This document shows positions 5,125-27,789 of a stretch of 41,269 bases of DNA, piece by piece (the first letter of the stretch is position 1; every line of letters starts with the position of its first letter). This DNA is from a virus. The stretch spans positions 1-41,269 of IMG/VR virus record IMGVR_UViG_3300042372_000619; one strand, written 5' to 3'. Under the pieces are notes generated by a model, which did not search any database, was not told the origin of the DNA, and saw only the letters and a list, made by a program, of their open reading frames with translations. The position numbers and the translations under genes are program-made.

Positions 5125-6612
5125 CTACTCCTGCAGGATCGTGTTCAGGGTCTCAGACTGCCCCCGCCCGCCGTCCTCGTGGATAAACCCGCCGCCCAGT
5201 CCCAGCCCCTCGATCCCGAGGGCGCCGTATTCGATGGCCTCCGCCGGGTGGCTGTGAATGTTTTTCTCCGGCGTCGGCGACAGCTTGTCGCCGGTGCGCT
5301 TGAACCGGAAACCGCCGGACAGGGCCTCGATCGTGCCCGGGCAGTTGTTGCCGATCAGGAACGCCGGCTCGCCACCCAGCACATTGCGCTGGAACACCTG
5401 GCTCAGCGCCGTGCGCCGCACTTTGGGGTCGTTCGACGGGGCCAGCAGCACTTCCAGCCCGGTATAGTGGCTCAGGATCTGCGCGAACGAGAGCTGCGCG
5501 TTCATCACCGACCGCGCCCGCGCTGACGGGTCCACCACGATCACCACCTCGGCGAGGTTTCCAAACCGGGTTTCGCGCACCCGTTTGATCTCGCCGGCGA
5601 ACTGCACCAGGTCCATCGGCGGCAGGATTTCCGCCAGCACGCGGAGCTGGCCGTTCACCCGCTGAATGAATTGCGCCGCCGGGTTCAGGGTGGCGCCGGC
5701 GTCGGCGCAGACCACGATCTGGTGGCCCGGCTCCGCCAGGATGGCGCGCTTGACCACCATGCGCTCGGCGTCGAAGTGTTCATGCACTGGCTGGCCGTGG
5801 CGGGTGTAGCCGGGCTTGTTCTCGACGAACCGCCGGATCGCCCAGGGCTGTTTCATCCGCTTGGCCAGGGCCTGATAGTAGTCCGGATTGATCTTGCGCA
5901 GGTTGTCGAGATTTTCCGCCAGGGGCGACAGGCCGCTGGGCTGGATGAACACCTCGTCGCCCTCCTCGGGCGTGATGTAAAAGCGCTTGTGGAACCAGGA
6001 CCCGATCACAGGGGCGTTGCTGTCGGCCCAGACGCCCGCATAGGCGGCCGGGCGGCCCGGTACGGGCTCGGGGCGGTCATCCGGCTCCGGATAGCGCCCC
6101 ACGCGGTTCTGGGCGCCCGCCAGGATGTCCACCGTCTCGTGGGTGTCCAGCTCGGGGATGATGAACGCCGTGGCCTCCAGGCCCCGGAAGAAGTCTTCCA
6201 GGTCGCTTTCGCCCACCGCGCGGCCCTTGACCTCGATATAAGCCGTGGTCCCGTCCGGACACGTCATGGTGAAGTTGTGATCCCAGGGGTCGCCCTTGGC
6301 CCCGGTAAAGCCCGATCCGCCGCCAGGCCCCTTCGTGCCCCACTCCTTGTCGATTTCCTTGAAGTAGCTGGGGGTGAACTGGTCCCAGAGGCGGCGGTAG
6401 GTGGTGCAGATCACCACAATTCGACACTTGCGCAGGCCGTCGATCGGGCTACGATCCTGCCATTGCGCAGCGCGGAGAATGCGACGGACCGTCTCGGTCG
6501 TCTTTCCCCCTCCCGTCGGCCCCACGATCAGGGCCAGATCCGCCCGGCTCTGACCATAGGCTTGCGCCTTGGGTCCAGCCGGTTTCCAGGCCGTCGACTT
6601 TTTCACATTCAC
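5125..6612 (-). CDS. terL: Terminase large subunit (packaging ATPase/nuclease)
   Basis: Motor that translocates DNA through the portal and cuts the concatemer. The protein is 495 residues, with a Walker A motif GPTGGGKTTE at 31-40. A likely coupling/ATPase motif CTTYRRLWDQF lies near 70-80, and AFIIPELDTHE near 149-159 sits in the Walker B position. In the C-terminal half, VVCADAGATLNP and EVVIVVDPSARA carry the acidic residues expected of the RNase H-like nuclease domain. The start is GTG 6612, supported by an AGGGGAG ribosome-binding site eight bases upstream. No ATG alternative fits the frame. It follows the small terminase gene after a 192-base gap holding a strong hairpin and G-runs. The T7-like/podovirus type is supported by the rest of the late gene order. 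Confidence 0.93.
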   Translation of the reverse strand: MNVKKSTAWKPAGPKAQAYGQSRADLALIVGPTGGGKTTETVRRILRAAQWQDRSPIDGLRKCRIVVICTTYRRLWDQFTPSYFKEIDKEWGTKGPGGGSGFTGAKGDPWDHNFTMTCPDGTTAYIEVKGRAVGESDLEDFFRGLEATAFIIPELDTHETVDILAGAQNRVGRYPEPDDRPEPVPGRPAAYAGVWADSNAPVIGSWFHKRFYITPEEGDEVFIQPSGLSPLAENLDNLRKINPDYYQALAKRMKQPWAIRRFVENKPGYTRHGQPVHEHFDAERMVVKRAILAEPGHQIVVCADAGATLNPAAQFIQRVNGQLRVLAEILPPMDLVQFAGEIKRVRETRFGNLAEVVIVVDPSARARSVMNAQLSFAQILSHYTGLEVLLAPSNDPKVRRTALSQVFQRNVLGGEPAFLIGNNCPGTIEALSGGFRFKRTGDKLSPTPEKNIHSHPAEAIEYGALGIEGLGLGGGFIHEDGGRGQSETLNTILQE

Positions 6613-7908: not shown

Positions 7909-7916
7909 GATGAGTG

Positions 7917-7951
7917 TTGACAGCCTCTCAAGTGTCCGCTAATCAGACACT
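7917..7951 (+). promoter_or_regulatory. Putative promoter with overlapping operator for the radC operon
   Basis: TTGACAG at 7917-7923 is followed after 14 bases by GCTAATC at 7938-7944. This agrees well with the Caulobacter housekeeping promoter (TTGACGS, 10-14 bases, GCTANAWC). The -10-like segment sits inside an inverted repeat, AGTGTC (7931-7936) and GACACT (7946-7951), with a 9-base spacer. A protein bound there would block the promoter. The start of radC is 47 bases downstream of the dyad. The operator differs from the repressor operators at 15243 and 16265, so a different regulator is expected, perhaps the small helix-turn-helix protein at 10800-11045. Confidence 0.55.
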
Positions 7952-7997
7952 ACGCACCACGGCAACGGGCCGGGCGCGCCTCGGAAGGGACCGAAAC

Positions 7998-8708
7998 ATG
8001 AGCGATCTTTTCGCCGAAACTCTGACACTCTCCGCCCAGCCGGCGCGCACCGCGCCCGTCTATGGCGTCTCCGGCCTGCAGGAGCGCGCCGCAAAGTTTG
8101 GCTGCGAGACGCTGGCCGATTTCGAGGCGCTGGAATTGCTCCTGTCGCGCGCCGCGCCCAAGTTGGCCGGCAATCATGCGAGGGCGCTCCTGCAGCGCTA
8201 CAACAGCTTGGGCGCCGTGCTGGCCGCGCCGCCGCAGGCTCTGGCCCAAATGGTCGGGACGGGCGCCGCGCTAGATCTGAAACTGGTTCATGAGGCGGCG
8301 CTGCGCGTGGCCGGCGAGAAGATCGCGCGCCGCTGCGTCATCAGCTCTTGGACGTCCGTTCTCGCCTATCTCAAGGTCAGCATGCAGCACAACGGGCGCG
8401 AGGCCTTCCGTGTGCTGTATCTGGACAAGAAAAACCAGTTGATCGCCGATGAGATCATGAACAACGGGACCGTTGACCATGCGCCCGTCTATCCGCGCGA
8501 GGTCGCCAAGCGCGCCCTCGAGCTGGACGCAAGCGCCGTGATTTTCGTTCACAATCACCCCTCAGGAGATCCGACGCCCTCCAGCGCCGACGTCGACATG
8601 ACGCGCCAGCTCGTCGAGGCGCTCAAGCCTCTGCGCGTCGCGGTGCATGATCACCTTGTTGTCGGGCGCGATGGCGTCGCCAGCTTCAAATCTTTGGGCC
8701 TCATGTAG
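7998..8708 (+). CDS. radC: RadC-family JAB/MPN-domain protein
   Basis: A 236-residue member of the RadC family (annotated as DNA repair, real function unsettled). The N-terminal part has the helix-hairpin-helix-like segment usual in RadC (LADFEALELLLSRAAPK and on to LAQMVGTGAALDLKL). The C-terminal JAB/MPN domain is complete, with VIFVHNHPSGDPTPSSADVD carrying the His-x-His...Ser...Asp zinc ligands, and VHDHLVVGRDGVASFKSLGL at the end. ATG 7998 is chosen because GGAAGGGACC lies just upstream, the same ribosome-site context found before the other genes of this cassette. An upstream start at 7914 would cover the operator. RadC proteins are common in plasmid and phage accessory blocks beside antirestriction genes. 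It leads the plus-strand accessory operon. Confidence 0.9.
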   Translation: MSDLFAETLTLSAQPARTAPVYGVSGLQERAAKFGCETLADFEALELLLSRAAPKLAGNHARALLQRYNSLGAVLAAPPQALAQMVGTGAALDLKLVHEAALRVAGEKIARRCVISSWTSVLAYLKVSMQHNGREAFRVLYLDKKNQLIADEIMNNGTVDHAPVYPREVAKRALELDASAVIFVHNHPSGDPTPSSADVDMTRQLVEALKPLRVAVHDHLVVGRDGVASFKSLGLM

Positions 8709-9351: not shown

Positions 9352-9593
9352 GCCTCAACCGCCCCTCACGCGCTCAGGTGAGCCGCTACCTCGCCAGCCA
9401 CGCCATAGACCGCGAGGCGCGCCGACAGGCCGCCCTGCAGGCCATGGCGGACTATCCCGGCGGGCTTCCGCCCATGGCCGCCCTTGGCTGGGATATCGGC
9501 CTGCTGGTCGGTCTGGAAAAGGACGGGCTCGCCATCCGCCTCCCCCGGGATCAGCTCGGAGATCTGCGCTTCGCCATCGCCCCTGCAAGTTGA
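9348..9593 (+). CDS. Unknown small protein, 81 residues
   Basis: Not recognised. The start is GTG 9348, overlapping the previous stop by four bases. The sequence MSLNRPSRAQVSRYLASHAI then DREARRQAALQAMADYPGG suggests an N-terminal helical region. A short beta-rich end follows (LVGLEKDGLAIRLPRDQLG, then DLRFAIAP). It is followed by the second copy of the intergenic repeat. Coupled translation and typical high third-position G+C support it as a real gene. Function is unknown. Confidence 0.62.
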   Translation: MSLNRPSRAQVSRYLASHAIDREARRQAALQAMADYPGGLPPMAALGWDIGLLVGLEKDGLAIRLPRDQLGDLRFAIAPAS

Positions 9594-9600
9594 CCCTCAA

Positions 9601-9691
9601 CCGGAGGCCGGGCGCGCCCGGCTTCCCATTGAGCGCCACGCTCACGCGCCGGCATCCGGTCGGCGCGATCATTGGAAAGGACCACACTGTG
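9601..9691 (+). repeat. Intergenic cassette repeat, copy 2
   Basis: This is the second copy of the element at 8717-8809, again between two genes of the cassette and again ending in GGAAAGGACC plus a GTG start, here of the DUF3560 gene. The palindromic head (9605-9624) has one mismatch relative to copy 1 (GGCCGGGCG against AAGCCGGGCG). The hairpin could end transcription partly or protect RNA 3' ends. Confidence 0.85.
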
Positions 9692-10474
9692 AACCACTAC
9701 GAAGCCAAGCAGGAGGCGCGCCGCGCCCGCCTCGAAGCCCGCGCCGAACGCCTGCAGCGTGAGGGGCAAGGCCGCATTGACCGGGCGCACAAGATGGCCG
9801 AGGCGATCCCGTTCGGTCAGCCGATCCTGATCGGGCATCACTCCGAGCGCCGCGACCGCAACTATCGGGGCAAGATCCATTCCGGGTTTGACGCGGGGTT
9901 CAAGACCCTCAAAGCCGCGGGAGACGTCGCCGCGCGCGCCGCTTCCATCGGATCTGGCGGCATCAGCTCCGACGATCCCGACGCCATCGCCAAGCTGCGC
10001 GACGAGCTGACCGCGATGGAAAAGCGTCAAGACTGGATGAAGCGCGCGAACGAGATCCTGCGCCGCCACAAGGGCGCGGCTGGCGTGCCGCACCTGATCC
10101 AGGCCGGCTATCCGGAAAAACTGGCCCTCTCGCTGATTGAACCCGATTTTGCAGGACACACCGGCTTCGCCAGCTTCCAGCTCACCAACAACAGCGCCAA
10201 CATGCGCCGCGTTCGCGCCCGCATTGCCGAGCTGGAGGCGCGCGCGGGCGCTCAGGACAAGGAAACCGAGGCCAAGGGCGGCCTTCGCATCCTTGAGAAC
10301 GTCGAGGCGAACCGCCTGCAACTGATCTTTCCAGACAAGCCGTCGCCCGAGATCCGCGCCGAGCTGAAGGCCGGCGGGTTCCGCTGGGCGCCCTCCGAAG
10401 GCGCGTGGCAGCGCCAGCTCTCCAACGGCGCACGCTATGCCGCCTCGCGCGTCGTCGCCAAGTGGGAGGCCTGA
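9689..10474 (+). CDS. DUF3560-family protein
   Basis: A 261-residue protein that matches the DUF3560 pattern. The N-terminus is highly charged and helical (VNHYEAKQEARRARLEARAE), then comes AEAIPFGQPILIGHHSERRD, and at the C-terminus LQLIFPDKPSPEIRAELKAG and FRWAPSEGAWQRQLSNGAR. DUF3560 proteins are common in plasmids, integrative elements and phages and have no established biochemical function. Their genes often lie near antirestriction or RadC genes, as here. The GTG 9689 start follows the GGAAAGGACC ribosome site. The much longer open frame upstream (from 9590) would run through the intergenic repeat and is not credible. Confidence 0.85.
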   Translation: MNHYEAKQEARRARLEARAERLQREGQGRIDRAHKMAEAIPFGQPILIGHHSERRDRNYRGKIHSGFDAGFKTLKAAGDVAARAASIGSGGISSDDPDAIAKLRDELTAMEKRQDWMKRANEILRRHKGAAGVPHLIQAGYPEKLALSLIEPDFAGHTGFASFQLTNNSANMRRVRARIAELEARAGAQDKETEAKGGLRILENVEANRLQLIFPDKPSPEIRAELKAGGFRWAPSEGAWQRQLSNGARYAASRVVAKWEA

Positions 10475-10800: not shown

Positions 10801-11045
10801 TGAACATGACTGACCGCCCGCCCCACGCCTCCGAGCTGGTCGCCCGCTATGGCGAGGCCCTCGCCGGGTCGGAGTGGGGCGCGGCGCTTGCCCGCCTCAC
10901 CGGGATCAATGAGCGCACCATGAGCCGCATCCGCGCCGCCGCGCGCGAGGGCCGCGAGTATCCCGCCGCGCGCGGGGTGCTGGCGGCCCTGCACGAGGCC
11001 TTGACGGCCGTGCTCGACCAACTGGCCCCCCACGCCCGCCGCTAG
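10800..11045 (+). CDS. Small helix-turn-helix protein (possible regulator)
   Basis: An 81-residue protein starting at ATG 10800, overlapping the previous stop by one base. An in-frame ATG 10806 is a possible alternative. The central part, WGAALARLTGINERTMSRIR, has the spacing of a lambda-repressor-type helix-turn-helix. It is followed by AAAREGREYPAARGVLAALH and a helical tail that could dimerise. It is the last gene of the radC operon and may be its own repressor acting on the AGTGTC/GACACT dyad at 7931-7951; this is inference. It converges on the replication operon: the two stop codons share the four bases CTAG at 11042-11045. Confidence 0.68.
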   Translation: MNMTDRPPHASELVARYGEALAGSEWGAALARLTGINERTMSRIRAAAREGREYPAARGVLAALHEALTAVLDQLAPHARR

Positions 11046-12937
11046 TCGTCCGCGTCGCCCCCGTCGTCCGGGAACGCCGCCGCCAGGCGCACGAAGACGC
11101 CCCAGCGTTTCTTGTCCAGCCCCTTGCCGCAGACGCCCGCCTGGGCGATCTCCGGCGGCGCGCGCTGCAGGGTGGTCGCCCACACGCCCGTCGCGCCAGA
11201 TACCCCGCTCCACGTCGTGCCGGCGTACAGCTTGCGCACCTCCGGATGTGAGCCCGGGAAGAAAAGCCGCGCGTTTTCCCAGTTTTTCAGGGCGCCCTTG
11301 GGCCAGGTCAGGGCCAGCCCCACCGCCGCGCAGGCTTCCTCCGCGTCCACGCTCCCGATGTCGCCATTGGCGCGCAGCGCCGCCAGCACGCCGCCGACGG
11401 TCGTAAACCCGCCCTTGCGATGCTTCAGGGCCTCCGGCGCCACGTCGAGCGGGTGTTTGAGGCAATCGCGCCAGTCCTCCGTGCGGTTGGCCGTCTCCGA
11501 GCGGTCCGACGGCTTCAGCGCGTCGGCCCAGAAGTCCAGCTCCGCCGCCGTCGGGTCGGTGTCCGACAGCGCCATATGTTCCGCCGCGATCAGCGCGCCG
11601 AACTGGTCGGCCCCGCGCGGATCGTGCCCCGCCTTGATCAGGGCGTGACGAAACGCCTTCAGCACGCGCGGCCAGCGTGGCCAGCCGTCGATCATCCGCC
11701 GCAACAGCTCGCCGCCGATCCGCAATAGCGCCGTCGCGTCAAACTCCAGGTCGCGCACCTCCGCGCCCTCCGGGAGATCCGGAAACGGCTGGAGCTGCAG
11801 CACCGCGAACCGGCTCTGATCCTGCCCCCGCATCGGCGGGATATTGATGCTCGAGCAGATGAACGGGCTGCGACACTGATATTCCCGGCTCACCCCGTCC
11901 TGACTGCCCCGGTTGATCGACCCGCCCGAGCTGGCGGTGCGGATCAGCTCGATGATCGCCATCACCTTGTTCGTATTGCCCTCGCTCTGGGCTTCCAGCT
12001 CGTCCACCCAGACCGGCGTGCAATCGTGGCGCAGCTTCTGATAGATGCCCGGCCCCGAGGTATTGACCGACTTCATCAGCGCCCGGCCCAGCACGTGGCC
12101 CAGCACCTCCTGCAGGCGGCTCTTGCCGCTCCCCCGCTCGCCGGTCAGATAGACCGCCGCGCGCCATTCCAGCGCCCCGCTCATCATCGCCATACACAGC
12201 CAGCCGATCAGCAGGCGCGGGTCGGTTTCGGGCCGCCGCCATGTCCAGGTTTCCAGCAGGGTCAGCAGCTCCGCCGCCGGGCCCTGGCTTCCGGCCGGCA
12301 CGCGATCAGGCGCGGGCCTGGGCAGCGGCGGACGCGCCGGAAACACCCATTCGCCGTGCCGCCCCGGCGGCAACCAGCGGCCGTGATACAGCACCCGGTC
12401 GCCCGCGTGATAGATCAGCGCCCCGCGCTCGTCCTGCCAGGCCCCGCGCCCGCGCACCCGGTCGCCGTCATCGAACACGCCCACAAAGGCGCACGCGTCC
12501 TGCAACGCCTGGCGCGCGTCGTCCGCGTCCCAGCCGGTCACCGGCGGCGGCCCGGCCTTGACGCCCTTTCCGAACCGTGGCCAGGCCCATTCCAGATAGC
12601 GCGACCGTCCGGCGAAGATCGAGCCCAGCGGCCCCTTCCCCGATGAATTCGACTTGAACGCCTCGATGGCGCCCAGGGTGTTCAGGAAGAAATAGACGTC
12701 CTCATTCTTGCCCAGCGGCGTTACCGGGCAGTTGGGGGGCAACCGGGTCAGGGGATCGGCGAAACTCAGCCACGCCCCCGGCGCCACCAGATCCAGCACC
12801 CGGCCATAGCCATCGGTCACCGGCATCTCGTCGCCCGGCATCGGGTCGGCCTTCGACGCCTCCAGCAGGCTCTCCAGCTCCTCGCCCTCGATCGCCAGCG
12901 CCCCTGCGATGGGGTCATCTTCTCGTTTACGCGTCAC
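11042..12937 (-). CDS. Primase-helicase-type ATPase (replication)
   Basis: A 631-residue replication ATPase. Walker A is GERGSGKS at 266-273, and Walker B PVWVDELE at about 308-315. Then come NTNKVMAIIELIRTASSGGS, with a sensor-like SSIN (FICSSINIPP), and QDQSRFAVLQL as a likely arginine finger. This is the layout of superfamily-3/P4-alpha-like helicases that unwind the phage origin, here without the primase domain, which is a separate gene at 13192-14157. The start is GTG 12937, directly after the stop of the preceding gene. It is the last gene of the leftward replication operon. Whether it recognises the origin itself or is loaded by the DnaA-IV-like protein cannot be told. Confidence 0.82.
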   Translation of the reverse strand: MTRKREDDPIAGALAIEGEELESLLEASKADPMPGDEMPVTDGYGRVLDLVAPGAWLSFADPLTRLPPNCPVTPLGKNEDVYFFLNTLGAIEAFKSNSSGKGPLGSIFAGRSRYLEWAWPRFGKGVKAGPPPVTGWDADDARQALQDACAFVGVFDDGDRVRGRGAWQDERGALIYHAGDRVLYHGRWLPPGRHGEWVFPARPPLPRPAPDRVPAGSQGPAAELLTLLETWTWRRPETDPRLLIGWLCMAMMSGALEWRAAVYLTGERGSGKSRLQEVLGHVLGRALMKSVNTSGPGIYQKLRHDCTPVWVDELEAQSEGNTNKVMAIIELIRTASSGGSINRGSQDGVSREYQCRSPFICSSINIPPMRGQDQSRFAVLQLQPFPDLPEGAEVRDLEFDATALLRIGGELLRRMIDGWPRWPRVLKAFRHALIKAGHDPRGADQFGALIAAEHMALSDTDPTAAELDFWADALKPSDRSETANRTEDWRDCLKHPLDVAPEALKHRKGGFTTVGGVLAALRANGDIGSVDAEEACAAVGLALTWPKGALKNWENARLFFPGSHPEVRKLYAGTTWSGVSGATGVWATTLQRAPPEIAQAGVCGKGLDKKRWGVFVRLAAAFPDDGGDADD

Positions 12938-14581: not shown

Positions 14582-14959
14582 TCAATCCTCGTCCAGATAC
14601 CAGGGGCGCAACGGCCCGGGCGATGGAGGCCCTGACGATGCAGAGGGCGGCCGCGCCGCGCGGGTCGGCGGGTCGCTCAGCGAGGCATGGGCCTGCGCCC
14701 GGGCCAGCGCCGCCTCCAGCTCGCCCGCCAGATCCGACCGCACCAGCGCCGTCTCGCCGGCAAAGCGCGTCGCCAGCTTCAGGCAGGCCAGCCAGGGATT
14801 GGCCGCGCTGTAGGGTTCGCACGGCATCACCGCCTTGTGAGCGCGCGCGCAGGCCCGCTCCAGCGGGTGCATCGGGCGGGTCGGGGTGCGGATGGCCAGC
14901 GCCACCTGCGTGGCCAGCTCGACCCAGCGGGCGACGTCTGCGGCGGTGCGGCGGGTCAT
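14582..14959 (-). CDS. Unknown replication-operon protein, 125 residues
   Basis: Not recognised. It is a mostly helical protein (MTRRTAADVARWVELATQVA, then ERACARAHKAVMPCEPYSAA and LACLKLATRFAGETALVRSD) with a proline-rich disordered tail ending WYLDED. It starts at ATG 14959, overlapping the Cro-like gene by four bases (ATGA), and its stop is two bases before the DnaA-IV-like gene start. That supports expression as part of the early leftward operon. No catalytic motif is seen. Confidence 0.62.
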   Translation of the reverse strand: MTRRTAADVARWVELATQVALAIRTPTRPMHPLERACARAHKAVMPCEPYSAANPWLACLKLATRFAGETALVRSDLAGELEAALARAQAHASLSDPPTRAARPPSASSGPPSPGPLRPWYLDED

Positions 14960-15222
14960 GCCAGCACCCGTTCGCCGGGTTGCGGCGCGAAGTCCGCAAA
15001 GCTCAGTGACTGGCCCAGATGCGCGGCGTTATTCACCATGCGCCTCTGCGCCGGCAGGGGGATCAACCCGCCGCCGCCGCCCTTGCTCATCGGCTGCAGC
15101 CAGCGATAGACGCTCTTTGGCGACGCCTCGGCGATCTCGGCGGTAGCGCCGACGCCGCCCAGACGGGCGACCACCCGATGCGCCGGTGTGGCGAAGGCCT
15201 CTGCGCTTGCAATGTCGACCAT
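14956..15222 (-). CDS. Cro-like regulator
   Basis: An 88-residue protein, first in the leftward early operon and divergent from the repressor, which is the position of Cro. The stretch IAEASPKSVYRWLQPMSKGG then GGGLIPLPAQRRMV is the pattern of small Cro-like proteins in alphaproteobacterial phages: a helix-turn-helix with S-V-Y-R-W, then a basic Gly-rich loop and LIP. The start is ATG 15222, three bases from the nearest TCCCGA half-site, so the repressor operators lie directly over its promoter and leader. Competition with the repressor for the same operators is expected by analogy to lambda. DNA binding has not been shown. Confidence 0.75.
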   Translation of the reverse strand: MVDIASAEAFATPAHRVVARLGGVGATAEIAEASPKSVYRWLQPMSKGGGGGLIPLPAQRRMVNNAAHLGQSLSFADFAPQPGERVLA

Positions 15223-15224
15223 TT

Positions 15225-15259
15225 TCCCGATAAGTCCCGATTGTCCCGGTTTTCGGGAC
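15225..15259. promoter_or_regulatory. Repressor operator region (left), with one full 17-bp operator and two half-sites
   Basis: A palindrome GTCCCG-GTTTT-CGGGAC lies at 15243-15259. Two further half-sites, TCCCGA at 15225-15230 and GTCCCGA at 15234-15240, are in tandem at 9-10 base spacing. The same 17-base palindrome with another spacer occurs at 16265-16281 on the far side of the repressor gene. The location between the Cro-like gene and cI, and the match of two sites, make this the likely repressor target. A TTGACG on the minus strand (15296-15301) could be the -35 of the leftward promoter. Confidence 0.75.
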
Positions 15260-15301
15260 TATTGGCTCCGGTGATTTGCCTGATAACGCAACAGCCTTCC
15301 G

Positions 15302-15314
15302 TCAAATATTTTGA
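15302..15314. promoter_or_regulatory. AT-rich dyad upstream of cI
   Basis: TCAAA-TAT-TTTGA is a 13-base dyad in one of the few AT-rich spots of the genome, about 45 bases before the repressor start. It overlaps the end of the TTGACG hexamer read on the minus strand. It may be a promoter element or a second regulator site. No further support. Confidence 0.35.
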
Positions 15315-15357
15315 GACTGTCCCCGCGCACCTGACAGGAAGCGGGGGGCGAAATCCT

Positions 15358-15927
15358 ATGTCTGCAGTGAATTGGCGCGCCAGGTTGCAGGCCGCCGGAC
15401 GATCAGAGACCGAGCTGGCGCGACGGCTTGGCAAGTCCAAGAGCGCTGTCAGCCGCATCATGACTGGCGAACGCAAGGATCTGCGCCAGACTGAAACCCA
15501 GGCGATCGAGCAGGCGCTGGCCGAAATGGAAGGCCGCTCAAGCCGCCCCGCCGGCATGATCCCGCTACTGGGCTATGCCGCCGCCGGTGGAACCGACCTG
15601 ATCGTCTGGAACGCCGATGATCCGGTGCAATGGGTCGAGGCCCCGCCGATGCTGGACGGATCTTCCGACATCCTGGCGATCCGGGTCTCCGGCGACAGCA
15701 TGGAACCGCGCCTGTTTGCCGGTGAGGTTATCTATGTCGGGCGCAAGCTGGCCCCGTCCCGCAATGGCGACGCGGTGATCGAGTTCAATGACGGCACGGC
15801 GGTCGTGAAGTCTTACGGCGGCACTCGTCAGGGCTATGTTTTCGCCCGCCAGTACAACCCCGACAGTGAACTGCGGTTCGACGCTTCAACCGTCAAGGCT
15901 GTTCACGCTGTGCTCTGGCGGCGCTAG
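15358..15927 (+). CDS. CI/LexA-type phage repressor
   Basis: A 189-residue lysogeny repressor. Residues 6-45 form an XRE-type helix-turn-helix (TELARRLGKSKSAVSRIMTG). Residues 68-189 are a peptidase S24/LexA domain with the self-cleavage dipeptide Ala76-Gly77 in LLGYAAAGGTD, catalytic Ser114 in VSGDSMEP and Lys151 in TAVVKSYGG. It should therefore be cleaved upon RecA activation, making the prophage SOS-inducible. ATG 15358 is used. The frame open from 15019 overlaps the divergent Cro-like gene and is not real. Matching operators on both sides (15243 and 16265) suggest control of both the leftward and rightward operons. It converges on the lipoprotein gene, sharing stop bases CTAG. Confidence 0.93.
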   Translation: MSAVNWRARLQAAGRSETELARRLGKSKSAVSRIMTGERKDLRQTETQAIEQALAEMEGRSSRPAGMIPLLGYAAAGGTDLIVWNADDPVQWVEAPPMLDGSSDILAIRVSGDSMEPRLFAGEVIYVGRKLAPSRNGDAVIEFNDGTAVVKSYGGTRQGYVFARQYNPDSELRFDASTVKAVHAVLWRR

Positions 15928-16211
15928 CCGAACGCGTCGCACGCCCCACGCTGGCCGACGAAAGAGCTGGCGACAATCTTCGACGCTCCATCGACTTCCG
16001 TGACCAGCTCGCACTCAAGGCGCGATCCCTCCCAGGCCACGGCCCGCTTCCACACGATATAGCGATGACCCGCAATTGTGCGCTCCTCGTGAGGCGGACC
16101 ATACTTTGCGATCATGTTTTCGATGGGCTGACCCGCCATTTGCGGCACTGTCGCGCAACTCGTCAGAGCCAGCGCAATCGCGCTTAACGCAACCCAAGAC
16201 TTCAGCGTCAT
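15924..16211 (-). CDS. Small lipoprotein, BamE/SmpA-like; possible superinfection-exclusion factor
   Basis: A 95-residue lipoprotein. The signal peptide MTLKSWVALSAIALALTSC ends in a clear lipobox L-T-S-C (Cys19). Ala at +2 predicts outer-membrane sorting. The mature part, GQPIENMIAKYGPPHEERTI then AGHRYIVWKRAVAW and a pair of cysteines (CELVTE and GQRGAC), looks like the small BamE/SmpA-like lipoproteins frequent in proteobacteria. ATG 16211 has GGGAGTG just upstream. Its position beside the repressor and opposite in strand to the lytic genes is that of lysogenic-conversion or superinfection-exclusion genes. That role is inference. The right-hand operator lies in its upstream region, so the repressor may also affect its transcription. 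Confidence 0.78.
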   Translation of the reverse strand: MTLKSWVALSAIALALTSCATVPQMAGQPIENMIAKYGPPHEERTIAGHRYIVWKRAVAWEGSRLECELVTEVDGASKIVASSFVGQRGACDAFG

Positions 16212-16264
16212 CCCACTCACTCCCAGCATGCAGGGCAGGTATCTCACAAAATAGTGTTTGCGCG

Positions 16265-16293
16265 GTCCCGAAAATCGGGACACACATTCCCGA
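16265..16293. promoter_or_regulatory. Repressor operator (right), palindrome plus half-site
   Basis: GTCCCG-AAAAT-CGGGAC occupies 16265-16281, and a further half-site TCCCGA lies at 16288-16293. The arms are identical to those of the 17-base operator at 15243-15259. The site sits between the divergent lipoprotein gene and the first gene of the rightward small-gene operon, so it is the natural control point for that operon. Confidence 0.75.
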
Positions 16294-16295
16294 CT

Positions 16296-16311
16296 TGTTT
16301 CACATGAAACA
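16296..16311. promoter_or_regulatory. parS-like palindrome (15/16 match to the bacterial ParB site)
   Basis: TGTTTCACATGAAACA has perfect 7-base arms TGTTTCA/TGAAACA. It differs from the widely conserved chromosomal parS sequence TGTTTCACGTGAAACA only at position 9. It lies three bases after the repressor half-site and 18 bases before the start of the 51-residue gene at 16330. No ParA gene and no chromosomal-type ParB gene is seen in the phage, so a host ParB would be the binder, if any. It could instead be an operator of another regulator. Confidence 0.65.
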
Positions 16312-16329
16312 CCGTTTCGGGAGACGCCC

Positions 16330-16485
16330 ATGCCACCCAACACCCAGCGCACCGTCGATCCCGGCGGTGTTTTTGCCCCGGTCCAGCCGGATCGACGCAC
16401 CGCCTCCGCCCTGCGCGGCCTGATCTGGGCCGCCATCTTCCTCGCCACGGTCGTCATCGTCCTGGCCAAGGCGGGGGCGGTCTGA
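16330..16485 (+). CDS. Small single-pass membrane protein, 51 residues
   Basis: Starts at ATG 16330, with GGGAG nine bases upstream. The product has a polar N-terminus (MPPNTQRTVDPGGVFAPVQP) and one membrane helix, LRGLIWAAIFLATVVIVLAK. It is the first gene of the rightward operon behind the right operator and the parS-like site. The stop and the next start overlap by one base (TGATG). The function is unknown. Small membrane proteins in this position can act in host takeover, exclusion or lysis control, but nothing here decides among these. Confidence 0.68.
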   Translation: MPPNTQRTVDPGGVFAPVQPDRRTASALRGLIWAAIFLATVVIVLAKAGAV

Positions 16486-16784
16486 TGCAGCATCCCTGCA
16501 AACTCTACCTCAACGTCTGGGACCCGCCGCGCGACTTCGCCGCCGTGGCCTTCCTCGCCGATCACATCCACACCCTGCGCGCCGGGCGGCCCATCGAGAT
16601 CGTCCCGGCCGTCATCGCCTCGGAGGCCTTCTCCGGTCAGGCCATGATCGTGCGCTACGCCGACGAGGCCGCCGGAACCCTGGGCTACGCCGTGATCGGT
16701 GCGCCCGAATACGTCCGCGCCCGCCAGCTCGAACTGCTGGACGGCGCGCTCTACCGGCTCGATCCGGTCCGGACGGCCGCCTGA
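16485..16784 (+). CDS. Unknown protein, 99 residues
   Basis: Not recognised. It is a compact mixed alpha/beta protein (MQHPCKLYLNVWDPPRDFAA, then VAFLADHIHTLRAGRPIEIV and GTLGYAVIGAPEYVRARQLE). Both ends overlap neighbouring genes by one base (TGATG), so translation is coupled. The G+C-rich third positions are like those of the surrounding phage genes. No catalytic motif. Confidence 0.65.
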   Translation: MQHPCKLYLNVWDPPRDFAAVAFLADHIHTLRAGRPIEIVPAVIASEAFSGQAMIVRYADEAAGTLGYAVIGAPEYVRARQLELLDGALYRLDPVRTAA

Positions 16785-16894
16785 TGCGCCGCCTCTGCGA
16801 AGTCATCATCCTCATCGCCCTGTCGGCCTTCACCGTGGGCGCCATCGGCTACGGCTGGGTCCTGCTGATCCTGCAATCCGGGAGGCCCTTCTGA
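16784..16894 (+). CDS. Very small membrane protein, 36 residues
   Basis: A reading frame from ATG 16784 to TGA 16894 overlaps the stop before it and the start after it by one base each (TGATG at both ends). The product starts MRRLCEVIILIALSAFTVGA and continues IGYGWVLLILQSGRPF: one membrane-spanning segment with a positively charged N-terminus and almost nothing else. The tight coupling on both sides is the main evidence that it is translated. Function unknown. Confidence 0.6.
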   Translation: MRRLCEVIILIALSAFTVGAIGYGWVLLILQSGRPF

Positions 16895-17235
16895 TGGACC
16901 AGCCCGACATTCTCGACACCCACGCCGCCGCCGCCGAGGCCGGCGTCTGCTATGACACCTTCCGCAAACAGTGGCGGGCATGGTCCGATCCGGCCCACCC
17001 CGCCTTCTGCCAGTTTCCCGCGCCCTGCCGCTATCCGCCGCCGGGCCAGCGCGGAACCTATGGCTGGCGGCGCAGCGCCGTGGCCGAGTGGAAGCTGCAT
17101 CGCGAGCGGGCGTTCGGCGCCGCCCACATCCAGCCGCGCGGCGTCCACGTCAGCCGCCAGAAGGCCGCCAGCGCCCTCACACCCGCCGTTCTGCGCCAGC
17201 GCGCCGAGCTGGCCCGCATCATGGAGCGCCGCTGA
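16894..17235 (+). CDS. Helix-turn-helix DNA-binding protein, AlpA/excisionase-like
   Basis: A 113-residue protein from ATG 16894. The N-terminal part, DTHAAAAEAGVCYDTFRKQW, has the form of a MerR/AlpA-type helix-turn-helix (x-x-A-A-x-x-A-G-V-x-x-x-T-F/L-R). A short wing segment follows (GTYGWRRSAVAEWKLHRER), and the tail is basic and helical (LRQRAELARIMERR). Proteins of this kind are excisionases or activators. With the integrase about 1.5 kb downstream in the same operon, an excisionase role is a fair inference. The longer frame beginning at 16699 overlaps two other genes and is rejected. Confidence 0.65.
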   Translation: MDQPDILDTHAAAAEAGVCYDTFRKQWRAWSDPAHPAFCQFPAPCRYPPPGQRGTYGWRRSAVAEWKLHRERAFGAAHIQPRGVHVSRQKAASALTPAVLRQRAELARIMERR

Positions 17236-17237
17236 TC

Positions 17238-17438
17238 ATGCCCATTCCTACGACAGACGCCCTGGAACTCCAGTACGGCGAGATCGTCTGGCAAATCTCC
17301 GCCGACCCCGCTTTGCCGCTCACCGTCATCGAGAACGACGGCGGCGGGATGGTGCTGGTGGAATGGACCACCCCCGACGGCCCCAGCCGCACCTTCGTGG
17401 GCGCGGACAGCCTCACCCTCGTCAACCCCAACGGCTAA
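17238..17438 (+). CDS. Unknown small beta-rich protein, 66 residues
   Basis: Not recognised. It starts at ATG 17238, two bases after the preceding stop. The product, MPIPTTDALELQYGEIVWQI and on to GMVLVEWTTPDGPSRTFVGA, has alternating hydrophobic residues of a small beta-barrel or SH3-like fold. It ends in TLVNPNG, 13 bases before the ASCH-like gene, whose ribosome site AAGGAGTAG overlaps its stop. The operon context suggests an early small phage protein. Confidence 0.6.
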   Translation: MPIPTTDALELQYGEIVWQISADPALPLTVIENDGGGMVLVEWTTPDGPSRTFVGADSLTLVNPNG

Positions 17439-17451
17439 GGAGTAGCCCGCA

Positions 17452-17910
17452 ATGGTCGCCTACCAGTTTGAAACCCGCCATCACGACGCCATCCTTGACG
17501 GCTCCAAACCCTTCACCCTGCGCGCCTCCCAGAAGAAGCGCCACGCCAAGGTCGGCGAGGAGATCCAGTTCCTGCCCGGCCGGGCCAAGCCGAAGTTTGC
17601 GATTGGCGAATGCGTCTATCGCGCCACGGTCACCTTCTCCGAGCGCGGCCTGATGAACATCGCCGACGTCAAGACCCTGGGCGTGGCCGGCGCGGACATC
17701 GACCGCATGTTCCAGTGCGCCCGCTGCGGCGCGCCCCAGGCCCGGGCCTACGTTGAGATCCTCGCCGCCGCCGACGGCTTCACCACCTGGGCCGATCTGG
17801 TCCGCTGGCATGCCGAACAGGGGGAGCCAGACGCGGGCGGCCTGATCGTCCGCGAGGTGATCGGCTGGACCTACGCCACTTCGGTGCCGATCAGGGCGGA
17901 GGACGCGTGA
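17452..17910 (+). CDS. ASCH/PUA-like domain protein, 152 residues
   Basis: The product begins MVAYQFETRHHDAILDGSKP, then FTLRASQKKRHAKVGEEIQF and LPGRAKPKFAIGECVYRATV. This is the typical course of an ASCH domain (a small beta-barrel related to PUA that binds RNA or nucleotides): substrate-side T-x-R, a basic loop, G-E-x-I-x-F and a later V-x-F strand. The central FQCARCGAPQARAY includes a C-x2-C pair. The domain call is by eye and moderately sure. The start is ATG 17452 with an AAGGAG ribosome site. It overlaps the next gene start by one base (TGATG). Confidence 0.68.
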   Translation: MVAYQFETRHHDAILDGSKPFTLRASQKKRHAKVGEEIQFLPGRAKPKFAIGECVYRATVTFSERGLMNIADVKTLGVAGADIDRMFQCARCGAPQARAYVEILAAADGFTTWADLVRWHAEQGEPDAGGLIVREVIGWTYATSVPIRAEDA

Positions 17911-18365
17911 TGACTGACCTCACCCAAATGCGAAAAGTGGCGGAGGATTTCGCAAAACACCCCAACCACCAAGTGGCGTGGCACGAGTTCAAATTGACGT
18001 TCGATGCGCCTGCTATCCTGTCCCTCTTGGACGAAATAGACCGGCTGACCGAGGCTCTTGCAACGCTCCGCGACGACGGAGGCTCGATGGCGATCCGCGC
18101 GTTCGCCGACGCCACCCTCCTTACTGGAAGATTCGCCCACGGCCAGCCCAGGATATCGATAGAAGTGGCTTGGTTGATCGAGGAATGGGACAGCAAATCG
18201 AGCGCGTTCAAAGCCCGATGGTGGACCTTGAATGGTGAGAACGGCGAATGGACCAAAGACAGCCTTCGCGCCCTTCGGTTTGCACGGAAGATCGACGCTC
18301 AAGCCTACATCGACGACCTCGGCTGGACCGAAGCTATCCCGACAGAGCATAGGTGGGGCCGTTGA
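17910..18365 (+). CDS. Unknown phage protein, 151 residues, of lower G+C
   Basis: Starts at ATG 17910, overlapping the previous stop by one base. The N-terminal half has a helix pair, PAILSLLDEIDRLTEALATL. The C-terminal half, WWTLNGENGEWTKDSLRALR then FARKIDAQAYIDD, is a small motif seen at the end of various phage proteins of unknown function (W-x(4-8)-W-T-x-D-x(3)-A-L-R/K-F-A-x(3)-D-A). By hand count, bases 18001-18300 are 59.7% G+C, while the flanks counted are 67-70%. That points to a more recent origin than its neighbours. No enzymatic motif. Confidence 0.65.
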   Translation: MTDLTQMRKVAEDFAKHPNHQVAWHEFKLTFDAPAILSLLDEIDRLTEALATLRDDGGSMAIRAFADATLLTGRFAHGQPRISIEVAWLIEEWDSKSSAFKARWWTLNGENGEWTKDSLRALRFARKIDAQAYIDDLGWTEAIPTEHRWGR

Positions 18366-18369
18366 AGCC

Positions 18370-18660
18370 ATGAGCGCCATCGACGACGCCATCCTCGCCC
18401 TGCGCGGTCGCCTGCAGGCCGCGCTCTACGATCAGCCGCTGATCCGCGACAAGCTGGGCATGGCCGACATCGCCACCGTCGCCGACGCCGCGATCACCAG
18501 CGCCAATGTGCGCACCCTGCTGGAGGGGATCGTCGCCGCCCAGGCGGTAAAGACCGCCATCGCCGCCGATATCCCGGCCCCGCCGTCCAGCGTCACCGGA
18601 GCGCTGGGCGACTACAACCCCATCGCCGTCGAGATCGGCGATATCTACGGCCTGTTCTAG
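18370..18660 (+). CDS. Unknown phage protein, 96 residues
   Basis: Not recognised. It starts at ATG 18370, four bases after the previous stop. The product is mostly helical (MSAIDDAILALRGRLQAALY, then MADIATVADAAITSANVRTL) with an end DYNPIAVEIGDIYGLF. Its G+C content returns to the phage average. It is the last gene of the small-gene run and is followed by a strong hairpin before int. Confidence 0.6.
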   Translation: MSAIDDAILALRGRLQAALYDQPLIRDKLGMADIATVADAAITSANVRTLLEGIVAAQAVKTAIAADIPAPPSSVTGALGDYNPIAVEIGDIYGLF

Positions 18661-18687
18661 CGCCGCAGGCTCCGTTAAAACCCGTCA

Positions 18688-18728
18688 CCCCGGTCCAAGC
18701 TGCGCCCCGCGCAGCGCCCGAACCGGGG
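18688..18728. terminator. Nested hairpin between the small-gene run and int
   Basis: The outer arms CCCCGGT (18688-18694) and ACCGGGG (18722-18728) enclose inner arms GCTGCGC (18699-18705) and GCGCAGC (18709-18715). It has the position of a terminator for the rightward operon, but no T-run follows, so it may act as a partial or factor-dependent terminator. The integrase start lies 45 bases further on and has its own AAGGAG ribosome site. Confidence 0.5.
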
Positions 18729-18773
18729 CCGGCCGCCACAACAACCCCCCTCTCTTTGGAAGGAGAACGGTTC

Positions 18774-20111
18774 ATGGCCAATCAGAGATCCGGCGTGCCC
18801 GCCGGCTGGCATTGGCGCGACGGCCACCCGCGCTGGATACCCTCGCCCACCCTGCGCCGTGCCGGCTGGAAGGGTCGCGACCTCAAGGACGCCGCCGGCC
18901 GCTGGCTGGCGCGCGGGGCCAGCATTGACGCGGCTCAGGCCCTCGTGGCCGCCGTGGCGGCGTGGAAGGCCGGCGGGCTGGTGCCGCCCGCCCTGGCCGC
19001 CAGCGCCCCGCCCGGGGCGGGCCAGACGCCCGGCGCGGGCCTTCCCGTCGCCGCCGAGGATCGCCGCAGCCTGGGCGCCCTGCTCGACGCCTATCTGGGC
19101 GCGCCGGAACGGGCCATCGCCCCCAGCCGCGAATTCGAGGCCATCCGCAACAAGCCGGATCGCCGCTCCAAGCTCTCGCGCCTGCTGGACGTGCTGGCGG
19201 GCTATCCGCTGAAGCCCACGGCCGCCGCCGATCTGCCCCGCTACCAGGCCGCCCGCGCCCGCGTGCGCAGCTTCTCCATCGACGTGCTGGAGCCGCCGGC
19301 CTTCGAGGACACGCCGGATCTGTCCCAGGCTCAGGGGCCGCTCTATGACGCCTACTGGACCCTGCATGAGAAGGTCGGGCGCAACATGGCCCACGGCGTG
19401 CTGGGCGATACCTCCGCCTTCCTCGAATGGTGCGTCAAGCGCCGGGCGCTGCGCCAGAACTGGGCCAAGCTGGTCGACCGCGAAACCCCGCCCGGCCGCA
19501 TCCGCGTGGGCACATGGCCCGAGCTGCGCGCCCTGATCAGTGCGGCCGAGGCCATGGGCCTGCCCTCGATCGCCGACAGCATCATCCTGGGCGTCGATCT
19601 GTCGTGGTCCCAGACCGACCGTCTCAAGCTCACCTGGGGCCAGATCAGCGCCGACAACACCGTCAAGGGCACGCGCCAGAAGACCGGGCGCAAGGGCGAG
19701 ACGCCGCTGCTGGCCACCCTGGGCGTCCCGCGCCTCCAGCAGATCCGCGCGCGCCAGGCCGAACGCTTCGGCCCCAACGTCACGCCCACCCACGTGATCC
19801 TCTGCGACCTGACCGGCAAGCCGTGGTCGGCCCGCTACTACCGCCAGAAGTTCGACGAGGTGCGCACCCAGGCCGCCAAAGCGGTCCCCAGCGTCGCCAC
19901 CCTGCTGGACCTCGACCTCCGCGACACCGCCATTACCGTCGGCAAGGCCGCCGGCCTCTCCAACGAGGAGATCGCCACGCGCTCGCTTCACTCCATGAAG
20001 CGCATCGCCGACGTGCTGGACAAACACTACACCGAGCTGGGCCAGGACATCGCCAACGCCGGCGCCAAAAAGCTCAACGACTATCTGGCGGCGGGAGGGA
20101 TCAGGCTGTGA
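18774..20111 (+). CDS. int: Tyrosine-recombinase integrase
   Basis: A 445-residue site-specific recombinase. The N-terminal part has a Pro/Arg-rich GWHWRDGHPRWIPSPTLRRA segment (arm-type DNA binding), a core-binding region (about 95-230), and the catalytic domain after 245. Present are Lys in the RQKTGRKGETPL hairpin (301-312), Arg383 in LDLRDTAIT, His406 in RSLHSMKR and Tyr419 in LDKHYTEL. The first catalytic Arg is not in the usual place (GVDLSWSQTDRLKLTW, 273-288), and the His of the H-x-x-R box is Leu380. The latter change is known in related phage integrases with a DLRDTA motif. ATG 18774 follows AAGGAG. attP lies directly downstream, and the stop codon itself is inside the first arm-type repeat. 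Confidence 0.88.
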   Translation: MANQRSGVPAGWHWRDGHPRWIPSPTLRRAGWKGRDLKDAAGRWLARGASIDAAQALVAAVAAWKAGGLVPPALAASAPPGAGQTPGAGLPVAAEDRRSLGALLDAYLGAPERAIAPSREFEAIRNKPDRRSKLSRLLDVLAGYPLKPTAAADLPRYQAARARVRSFSIDVLEPPAFEDTPDLSQAQGPLYDAYWTLHEKVGRNMAHGVLGDTSAFLEWCVKRRALRQNWAKLVDRETPPGRIRVGTWPELRALISAAEAMGLPSIADSIILGVDLSWSQTDRLKLTWGQISADNTVKGTRQKTGRKGETPLLATLGVPRLQQIRARQAERFGPNVTPTHVILCDLTGKPWSARYYRQKFDEVRTQAAKAVPSVATLLDLDLRDTAITVGKAAGLSNEEIATRSLHSMKRIADVLDKHYTELGQDIANAGAKKLNDYLAAGGIRL

Positions 20112-25110: not shown

Positions 25111-27789
25111 CTACTGCACCGCGTCCGTCGGCGAGATCAGGAAATCACTCCCCTCGCGCTCGCGCACATTGGCCTCATACCGCGCCAGATACCCCGGCGA
25201 GATCGCCTCCTGCAGCCGCCACAGCACCAGATAGTCCAGCGCCAGCCGGGTGTAGAAGATGTTGGCGAACGGGGTGTTGTCCTTGATGAACCGGAACCCC
25301 TGTTGCTCCAGCACCTGCTTCGAGGCGTCGCGCTTCTCGTCCGTGGTCAGCGGGTTGAGCGTCCCGGCCGCCGCGCCCACCACCAGGCGCAGCCGCTCCA
25401 GCTCGCTCACCGACGGGCCGGCGAAACTGCTGATCGTCGCCGGCATGCCGCTGCGCGCATACTCACCGAACAGGAAGTCGCCATAGATCCCCATGCCGCC
25501 GCCCTGCAGCAACGCCGCCAGCCAGGTTTCCGGCCGGTCCAGCGGGCGCGGCGTGCGGCCCTTGACCAGTTGCTTGGCCTGTAGCGACGCCGCCCCCAGC
25601 AGGGTCGTGGCCACGATCAGATGCGCCAGCAGGGCGACCGGCTGGCGACCCGCGAACCCCCGCGCCGCCGGCGCCACATGCCGCCCCAGGATCGCCGCCG
25701 AAAAGCTCCAGAACTGGGTGAAGCTGCGCACCGCCTCGCCCCACACGGTGCCCGCCTTCAGGCCCTGAACCAGCGCCACCCGCTCCCGCGCCCGGGCCTC
25801 TGTCAGCGCATCGTCGAGGATGCCGCCGGTCATGGTCTGGAACCTGAGCTTGATGTCGTCACGCAACCGCGCCGCCGCCGCCGCCGTGGCCTGCTTGCCC
25901 TTCAGGCCCGCCCAGCCATGCACCTGCGCATCCGACAGGCCGTCGATGGCTTCCAGGCTGAAATAGGTCCGCCCGTCCTCCAGCGGCGTGGTCCCGGTCC
26001 GCGCCAGATCCCACAGACCCCGGTCGATCCCGTACCGCTCGAACGTCTCGCGCGTGCCGGCCTGCAATCCAGCCCACTCAAATTGCGCTTCCGCGCCCCA
26101 ATGAGCGGACAGCATTTCACCGACGCCCCGGCGCAGGCCGTCCGACCAGGCTTCAAAACCGTTCACCCGATAGAACACCCGCTGCGCCCAGGCCGACCAG
26201 CCCAGCGGCCCGTCCGTGGCCGTGAAGCGGCCCATCAGATGCGCCGCCGCCGACCGCGACCCCACGTCCAGCAAATCTGCAGCGCGCTTGCCCTCGGCGT
26301 CCTGAAGCCGCGCGATGCCTTTCAGCGCCGCGCCATAGCCGCCCGCGAAATTGCCGCCCGCCCGGGTCATGGCCTGACTGGCCAGCGCCGTGTCCGACAG
26401 CGCCGACAGCACCATGCCGCCCAGCTTGCTCAACACCTGCGAGGTCCGGATCGTGCGCCCGATCAGCGCCAGCCGCAGGTTGTCGGGCCGGTTGGTTTCC
26501 CCGGTCAGCTCGTCAAACTCCGCCTGTCGCAAGCGGCTCTGCAGGGCGTTGGCCGCCCCCGCATCGCCGCGCGCCCGCGCCGCCGATCCCAGCGTCTCCA
26601 TCGTGCGCCCGAAGGCGGCTTCCGGCGACGGTCCCCAGCGCGCCATCAGGGCCGCGTTCTTGCCGCCGCGCTCCAGCTCGCCCATCACCACGCCATAGAG
26701 CGACCCCCGCCCATACTCCGCGTGATAGTCCATCCAGGCGTCCGGGTCCCTGAAGTGCAGCACCCGGTGCTTGCTGACCGCGCGGGCCTTGCCGGCCGGC
26801 GGCCGGAATTCCGCCAGATCCTGCGCGCCCCCCAGCACCTCGTGGGCGCCCGAGACGATGTTCCACCAGGCGCGGTACAGGAACCGCTCCTCCAGATCCG
26901 CCGCGTCGTCGATCACCCCGGCCTTCGCCAGCGCCTCGGCCTCGTCCGCCAGCGCCCCGTCGGCCGCGTCGATCCCGTCGAAGGTCGCCGGGTCCAGCCG
27001 TGGCCGGATATAGTCCCGCCATTGCCGGAACGCCTTGCGCGACGCCTGCAGGCGCGCCTCGCCCCACCTGGCCGGCGCACCGATCCCCGCCTCGCGAAAC
27101 TCCCGCCAGAACCCGCCCGACACCTTCAGCCGGTCGTGCGACTGCGCCGCGATCCGCCCCTTCAGCTTGCCCACGAACGCGCCCTGGGCGTTCAGACCCT
27201 GACGGTTTTTCTCCAGCGCGGCGGCGAACACCCGCGCCGCCGCCAGCGCGTCGGCATCCCCCGTCGCCTCGATATCGGCCCCGTTCAGCCGCGCCATCTC
27301 GCGCGCGACGTCGCGGTCGAACGCATCGTCTCCGCCGCCCCAGAAGTTCACCAGCCGGTCGCTCAGGCCCTCGTGCGCCGCCAGACCGCGCTCGACGTCG
27401 CCCCACGCCGCCACGGCGCGCGCCCGGCCCTCGGCGTCCACGCTGGCGCTGGAGAACCCGGCCTGCTTGTCGGAGCCCACATTGTAGGCCTTCAGGGCCT
27501 GCGCCTCGTCCAGCCCGCCCGCCGTCATGGCGGCCATCCGGGTTTCACGTGCAACCCTGGCGGCCTTGGCGAAATGCTCCAGCCGGCGCGCCTGCAGGGC
27601 GGTTTCCACCTCCTCCCGCGTCAGGTCCGCGGCCGCCTGTTGCCAGGCCTGTTCATCACTGGCCGTCGGGGCCTTGCCCTTGGCGCGTTTGTGCTTGCGC
27701 GCCAGCCGGTCGAGGATGTCGTCGATCTCGGCGTCGGTGAAGGCGTCGCCGGTGGCGGCGCGGATGGGGGCGTGGCAGGCGCGGGTCAT
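25111..27789 (-). CDS. Large internal virion (ejection/core) protein, 892 residues
   Basis: Probable counterpart of T7 gp16, the largest inner-core protein ejected to form the DNA channel across the envelope. The N-terminal half is highly charged and helical (FTDAEIDDILDRLARKHKRA and on). The second half has Ala/Gly-rich amphipathic segments (GGMVLSALSDTALASQAMT), then hydrophobic stretches near FAGRQPVALLAHLIVATTLLG-AASLQAK. The call rests on position after the SLT-containing protein, size and composition; sequence motifs are not decisive. It overlaps the XF1762-type gene by four bases (ATGA). An imperfect parS-like sequence near 27541 lies inside it and is probably chance. Confidence 0.75.
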   Translation of the reverse strand: MTRACHAPIRAATGDAFTDAEIDDILDRLARKHKRAKGKAPTASDEQAWQQAAADLTREEVETALQARRLEHFAKAARVARETRMAAMTAGGLDEAQALKAYNVGSDKQAGFSSASVDAEGRARAVAAWGDVERGLAAHEGLSDRLVNFWGGGDDAFDRDVAREMARLNGADIEATGDADALAAARVFAAALEKNRQGLNAQGAFVGKLKGRIAAQSHDRLKVSGGFWREFREAGIGAPARWGEARLQASRKAFRQWRDYIRPRLDPATFDGIDAADGALADEAEALAKAGVIDDAADLEERFLYRAWWNIVSGAHEVLGGAQDLAEFRPPAGKARAVSKHRVLHFRDPDAWMDYHAEYGRGSLYGVVMGELERGGKNAALMARWGPSPEAAFGRTMETLGSAARARGDAGAANALQSRLRQAEFDELTGETNRPDNLRLALIGRTIRTSQVLSKLGGMVLSALSDTALASQAMTRAGGNFAGGYGAALKGIARLQDAEGKRAADLLDVGSRSAAAHLMGRFTATDGPLGWSAWAQRVFYRVNGFEAWSDGLRRGVGEMLSAHWGAEAQFEWAGLQAGTRETFERYGIDRGLWDLARTGTTPLEDGRTYFSLEAIDGLSDAQVHGWAGLKGKQATAAAAARLRDDIKLRFQTMTGGILDDALTEARARERVALVQGLKAGTVWGEAVRSFTQFWSFSAAILGRHVAPAARGFAGRQPVALLAHLIVATTLLGAASLQAKQLVKGRTPRPLDRPETWLAALLQGGGMGIYGDFLFGEYARSGMPATISSFAGPSVSELERLRLVVGAAAGTLNPLTTDEKRDASKQVLEQQGFRFIKDNTPFANIFYTRLALDYLVLWRLQEAISPGYLARYEANVREREGSDFLISPTDAVQ

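Follow-up and report, generated by a model that had tools for sequence, protein, structure and literature searches.

A chromosomal-type parS site in the lysis-lysogeny region of a temperate phage suggests recruitment of host ParB

What is a near-perfect copy of a bacterial centromere site doing beside a repressor operator in a phage genome in which no partition genes are detected? The window, i.e., the whole stretch of 41,269 bases analysed here, carries at 16296-16311 the parS-type 16-mer TGTTTCACATGAAACA, which differs from the consensus TGTTTCACGTGAAACA at a single base, with A in place of G at position 9. The first-pass annotation had described a near-perfect parS with one central base changed, and its sequence and coordinates are exact. 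Its chance figure of 0.0005 is correct under uniform base use; a first-order Markov model of the window gives 5.6e-5 expected sites at one mismatch or fewer and 0.0016 at two or fewer. With its one mismatch, the site falls within chromosomal-type parS as defined here (at most two mismatches of the consensus), and it is the sole such place in the window. Allowing three mismatches adds one further place, at about 27541-27556 within a structural gene. When TGTTTCACATGAAACA itself is the query, the window holds no other copy at up to three mismatches (the two matches are the two strands of the same site; shuffles average 0.09).

The site is placed between a putative operator and the first gene of the right operon. 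This right repressor operator, GTCCCGAAAATCGGGAC at 16265-16281, is predicted from an inverted repeat pair, and a left operator, GTCCCGGTTTTCGGGAC at 15243-15259, is likewise putative. The CI-type repressor (15358-15927, plus strand) combines HTH_3 with Peptidase_S24, and a small lipoprotein-like gene (15924-16211, minus strand), assigned from its sequence and a weak match to phrog_3716 (E 0.0013; family searches used 15924-16202), runs in the direction away from the right operon. The parS-type site is bracketed by TCCCGA and its mirror image TCGGGA. The former, a probable operator half-site at 16288-16293, ends two bases to the left, not three as first annotated, and the latter (16317-16322) overlaps GGGAG, the apparent ribosome-binding site of the next gene. 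This first right-operon gene (16330-16485, plus strand; 51 aa, membrane protein-like by sequence, no family match) begins with an ATG at 16330, which confirms the reported distance of 18 bases from the site. The CI operator repeats, GTCCCG-N5-CGGGAC, are unrelated to TGTTTCA-N2-TGAAACA, and the parS-type site does not match the operators of the adjacent repressor. The first left-operon gene (14956-15222, minus strand; 88 aa) is 36% identical to a gene of the relative L255, and that counterpart is 40% identical to a gene of L253 with sub-threshold matches to YdaS and P22 Cro.

The phage is temperate, as indicated by its integrase (18756-20111, plus strand; phrog_1, E 2.5e-7). GC content is 0.65-0.73 in 2-kb steps, and the leftward genes comprise a replication set (Prim-Pol, primase) and a structural set that includes a capsid (phrog_3437) and a virion protein (phrog_684). 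No family named terminase appears among the matches of the window proteins scanned. Among the matches listed, the capsid is distant from those of named phages (about 32-36%, mostly Pelagibacter phages), and the repressor shares 23-34% identity with those of rhizobial phages, Rhizobium phage 16-3 among them. A RadC-like JAB protein and a DUF3560 protein (7914-8708 and 9590-10474) are oriented opposite to the replication genes, and neither of two long ORFs of 518 and 966 aa (204-1760 and 1926-4826) matches Pfam or PHROG at E 0.001.

The first-pass annotation had also stated that neither parA nor a chromosomal-type parB is present, and this holds: PF02195 (ParB_N), PF13614 (ParA-type ATPase) and TIGR00180 gave nothing above curated cut-offs in the window or its nine relatives (10 of 10 records, several of the relatives being fragments), while the Caulobacter vibrioides control was positive in each search. 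TIGR00180 leaves a single trace in the window, at 11.2 bits, which comes from the helix-turn-helix of the repressor itself, and the L253 record shows sub-threshold partition-family traces of 13.5 and 10.7 bits. Phage-plasmids with their own ParABS are already known (PMC7156551), and P1, N15 and cyanophage Mic1 are described as carrying parS on the phage genome too. However, these encode their own ParA and ParB (PMC7156551), whereas the window phage lacks that pairing, neither protein being detected, and has an integrase.

The form with A at position 9 also occurs in alphaproteobacterial chromosomes. The pattern TGTTTCACRTGAAACA is found in 106 of 142 alphaproteobacterial genomes, and its reversed control in none of the 142. 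A contig-level pattern with R, which admits the consensus, returned 117 stretches, 113 of them with the consensus. Among the matches listed, the exact A variant lies at seven chromosomal places in six genomes (G103, whose two copies 80 bases apart count as one place, G073, G051, two in G015, G013 and G012); some of these come from 10 genomes picked for holding parS, a biased set, and the survey of 142 genomes is the fairer one. Three of the seven places, in three of the six genomes, are at rsmG-parA-parB with the families confirmed, and at two of them consensus parS is also present, 66 bases or 2 kb away. At the remaining four places listed, no parA, parB or rsmG occurs in the surrounding 8-12 kb. 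Since three of the seven lie at rsmG-parA-parB, the A form is one used by chromosomal centromere regions. The window site thus has the same sequence as parS of chromosomal ParABS, but unlike it stands on a phage without detected parA or parB and in a lysis-lysogeny region. In Pseudomonas aeruginosa, ParB is reported to bind all ten parS sites in vitro, including parS5 TGTTCTACATGGAACA and parS10 TGTTCCACAGGGAACA, which have A at position 9; parS5 is among the more weakly bound sites, and the two-mismatch sites (parS5-parS10) have a weak effect in vivo (PMC4368675). The sites parS2 and parS3 of that series are identical to a site in the relative L253, TGTTCCACGTGGAACA, although parS1-parS10 are chromosomal, unlike the phage sites (PMC4368675).

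Relatives were found through the primase-type protein of the window (11042-12937, minus strand), which retrieved L252-L255 directly and L256-L260 by primase alignment, with pairwise primase identities of 33-83%. A parS within two mismatches occurs in 5 of the 10 whole records, at six sites that all fall within the corresponding control region, and none of the 10 holds the reversed pattern; about 0.009 matches are expected by chance over the 186,332 bases of loci compared. The first-pass annotation had proposed looking for the motif at the same place in related phages, and the outcome is divided. Clear sites are present in L253, L256, L258 and L259, so that five of the nine records that cover the control region, the window included, carry one (the L260 contig stops short); L254, L255 and L257 have the control region and no parS site. 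L259 holds TGTTTCCCGTGAAACA, with one mismatch, and L253 holds TGTTCCACGTGGAACA plus TGTTTCGCGTGAAACG, in both cases between the right operon and the repressor module. A perfect TGTTTCACGTGAAACA lies ahead of the right operon in L256, where three repressor queries detected no repressor on the other side of the site. In L258, another perfect copy, 14 bases away from the end of the contig, precedes a small membrane gene and the repressor, with the right operon falling outside. L252 has degenerate copies only (3 and 4 mismatches), at two equivalent positions. The perfect parS of L256 sits in a long intergenic region (5304-5570), and an integrase-like gene is nearby.

The nearest relative, L255 (74% in primase), is without parS; its repressor is 34% identical to that of the window and its flanking sequence differs, L255 also being the nearest relative that covers the region. 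In an unrooted FastTree of the primase, the window groups with L255, L252, L253, L258 and L259 (support 1.0), and within these six the site is clear in four, degenerate in L252 and absent in L255. Outside this group it is found in L256 and not in L254 or L257. The distribution on the tree is patchy, and therefore gains or losses have occurred. The shared location could stem from common descent alone.

The repressors and their putative operators have changed around the site. Repressor identities are 36-60% among the window, L252 and L253 and 58% over 118 aa between L258 and L259, and the two sets show no similarity at E < 0.1. The putative operators adjoining the site differ as well, being GTCCCGAAAATCGGGAC in the window, GTCTAGACGTCAAGTCTA in L252 and L253, and GGCACATTAATGTGCC in L259. 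Because parS persists through such exchange of the repressor module, it is unlikely to serve that repressor as operator. Binding of the site by CI itself was considered and rejected, as the repressors and putative operators differ among the phages that share parS.

The palindrome might instead be an operator for some other phage or host regulator whose sequence coincides with parS, and we regard this as unlikely, though it is the best of the alternatives. The site does sit amid repressor operators, and in L252 and L253 a second, weaker copy lies 17-18 bases ahead of a start codon, as in the window, giving a copy at this distance from the first right-operon start codon in the window, L252 (degenerate) and L253 (2 mismatches). 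However, parS is retained across phages with unrelated repressors and differing putative operators, and in L256 the three queries detected no repressor beside it. Its sequence variation also tracks known parS forms, including TGTTCCACGTGGAACA, and its place relative to the operator varies: parS follows the operator in the window and precedes the operator or the likely promoter in L253, L256 and L259 (promoters judged by eye).

Other viral contigs hold the motif as well. We collected at least 145 consensus sites in 119 loci (120 stretches) and at least 122 sites of the A variant in 120 loci; the site counts that follow are among the matches listed. Most consensus sites (88 of 145) are within some ORF, but 57 of 145 are outside every ORF of at least 60 aa, about five times the expected between-gene share; the figure is 7.6% for 16-mers matched in GC, and for other perfect palindromes 6 of 52. 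When similar flanks are grouped, 109 groups remain with a weighted 39.6 outside ORFs. For the A variant, 43 of 122 sites are outside ORFs (83 groups, weighted 26.1), against 12.3% of GC-matched 16-mers and 14 of 35 other palindromes. As other palindromes are outside ORFs as often as the A variant, its enrichment does not single out parS, whereas that of the consensus does. A cruder gene call places the consensus sites as coding 72, tandem 48, divergent 9, convergent 7 and edge 9 (random expectation 125.9, 11.6, 2.6, 2.6 and 2.3), and the A-variant sites as coding 57, tandem 44, divergent 3, convergent 12 and edge 6 (expectation 103.9, 11.2, 2.8, 2.0 and 2.0). Convergent gaps, which are without promoters of the flanking genes, are thus also enriched. 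Among the first 50 site-bearing records, ParB_N is above cut-off in one and at E < 0.001 in two, and tblastn with two ParB queries finds a chromosomal-type parB in 1 of 119 consensus loci and 2 of 120 A-variant loci among the matches listed; the absence of ParB here is a weak statement because many records are fragments. A link of parS in other phages to S24 repressors was rejected, with S24 in 0 of 50 records.

That parS is carried without detected partition genes in this phage and in several distant relatives suggests that host ParB may be recruited to phage DNA. In our judgement the site is probably a genuine parS, kept by a temperate alphaproteobacterial phage lineage to recruit the chromosomal ParB of its host, and host ParB likely binds the window site. 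The first-pass annotation had suggested that host ParB could load on the phage, and the comparison supports this, as the site is a variant used at chromosomal partition loci and parS recurs while repressors and putative operators change. ParB loads at parS in a CTP-dependent manner and then slides (PMC8367383; PMC12704722). On the phage, host ParB would bind parS, close as a CTP clamp and slide over the neighbouring DNA, and the phage genome, whether incoming, excised or pre-integration, would be handled by host ParA and the polar machinery like a second origin. If binding occurs, a role in DNA positioning or partition has a little under an even chance, control of transcription is possible and less probable than that, and ParB titration or other effects would make up the rest. 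Handling by the partition machinery is favoured because the position of the site with respect to the operator varies and the motif occurs in gaps of every orientation in other viral contigs. An effect confined to the adjacent right operon would be possible and secondary; the further suggestion that spreading silences this operon finds nothing beyond location in its favour, as the site can lie before or after the operator and, in other viral contigs, the consensus is enriched in tandem, divergent and convergent gaps alike.

Recruited ParB could also serve a decoy, in which replicated copies of the site titrate ParB and stall segregation or division of the host, and this we hold to be quite unlikely. 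The genomic island SGI1 offers a parallel, as its parS copies are reported to stabilise SGI1 and help to expel the helper plasmid (PMC10954446), and consensus parS in viral records of which so few (1 of 50, many being fragments) have ParB_N above cut-off would also suit a decoy. Yet the phages have one or two sites per genome only.

Very unlikely is a role in RNA, where a leader hairpin would mask the ribosome-binding site from which the first gene of the right operon is translated. The window leader does fold, at -13.4 kcal/mol (z -2.35; 3 of 200 shuffles equal or better), and the outer arms TCCCGA and TCGGGA (16288-16322) lengthen the stem across GGGA. However, L256 and L259 have the site a long way ahead of the start of the right operon and upstream of the likely promoter (by eye), and 15150-16500 is without any Rfam family. 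Chance resemblance in this phage, to which the one mismatch from consensus and the lack of a site in the nearest relative L255 might point, is strongly disfavoured, given 5.6e-5 sites expected in the window and sites in 5 of 10 records in one region with none in the control.

For recruitment of host ParB, the closest precedent by analogy is the mimicry of IncC plasmid parS by SGI1. The parS mimics of SGI1 bind the ParB of the IncC plasmid, stabilise SGI1 and destabilise the plasmid, so that a mobile element with parS mimics uses the system of another replicon (PMC10954446). The window phage likewise has a copy of another replicon's parS and no detected ParB of its own, assuming that the parS of its host matches. 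The ParB used by SGI1 comes from a plasmid, with binding and stabilisation measured (PMC10954446), whereas the presumed partner of the window phage is the chromosomal ParB of its host, on evidence from sequence comparison. What would be new is the same trick with the host chromosome instead of a plasmid as presumed partner. A literature search, with preprints outside its scope and subscription papers thinly covered, found no paper describing phages that use host chromosomal parS. More tentatively, centromere mimicry may be a general strategy, whereby host-type parS, carried without ParB by many phages from several lineages, would draw in host ParB with its partners (ParA, polar anchors, perhaps SMC) so that the phage genomes are placed, retained or protected; in the present lineage the site would be built into the lysis-lysogeny region, tying the decision to host chromosome segregation. 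If host ParB loads on phage DNA, such phages would be exploiting the bacterial centromere or reporting on it, and a mutable element of 16 bp would give entry to the positioning of pre-integration genomes and to a segregation input into lysis-lysogeny.

Three fragment records of near-identical relatives (L122-L124; capsid 94-97%) have nothing that matches the immunity region, protein scans of the viral contigs with the repressor and integrase gave no relatives, and a DNA search of INPHARED phages with 15200-19000 gave no match. In class-wide searches, 10 of 289 genomes gave structural relatives and 11 of 385 gave primase relatives, all distant. No site within three mismatches was present in eight loci of alphaproteobacterial genomes picked by more distant primases, in about 8 kb around the repressor of phages 16-3, RHph_TM3_3_14B, Rivra and RHph_I3_18, in a similar span around the GapR-like gene of phages DMCA and Jess A, or in the stretches examined of two faecal phage records and L122-L124. 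A scan with the operator pattern returned six stretches, all six without parS within three mismatches and without a similar repressor; in L412-L415 the pattern stands amid many similar GGGAC repeats.

Two observations concern other phages. The right operon opens with the nucleoid protein GapR (DUF2312) in L252 (1183-1446) and L253 (2483-2752, minus strand), with PF10073 at E 1e-32 and 5.8e-32, respectively. DNA matches of the gapR gene are found in five Caulobacter phage records, DMCA and Jess A included, and in two Microcystis phage records, and the protein matches in plasmids are all alphaproteobacterial among those listed. GapR hints at Caulobacter-like hosts for L252 and L253, and at phages that may work with host chromosome factors. 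Phage DMCA also has an annotated GcrA cell cycle regulator gene. In addition, six AT-rich viral contigs (L007, L008, L013, L041, L046 and L085) carry the exact A variant beside a shared GTGCGCCCGAAAA-type context, and they probably represent a single phage family whose site is fixed.
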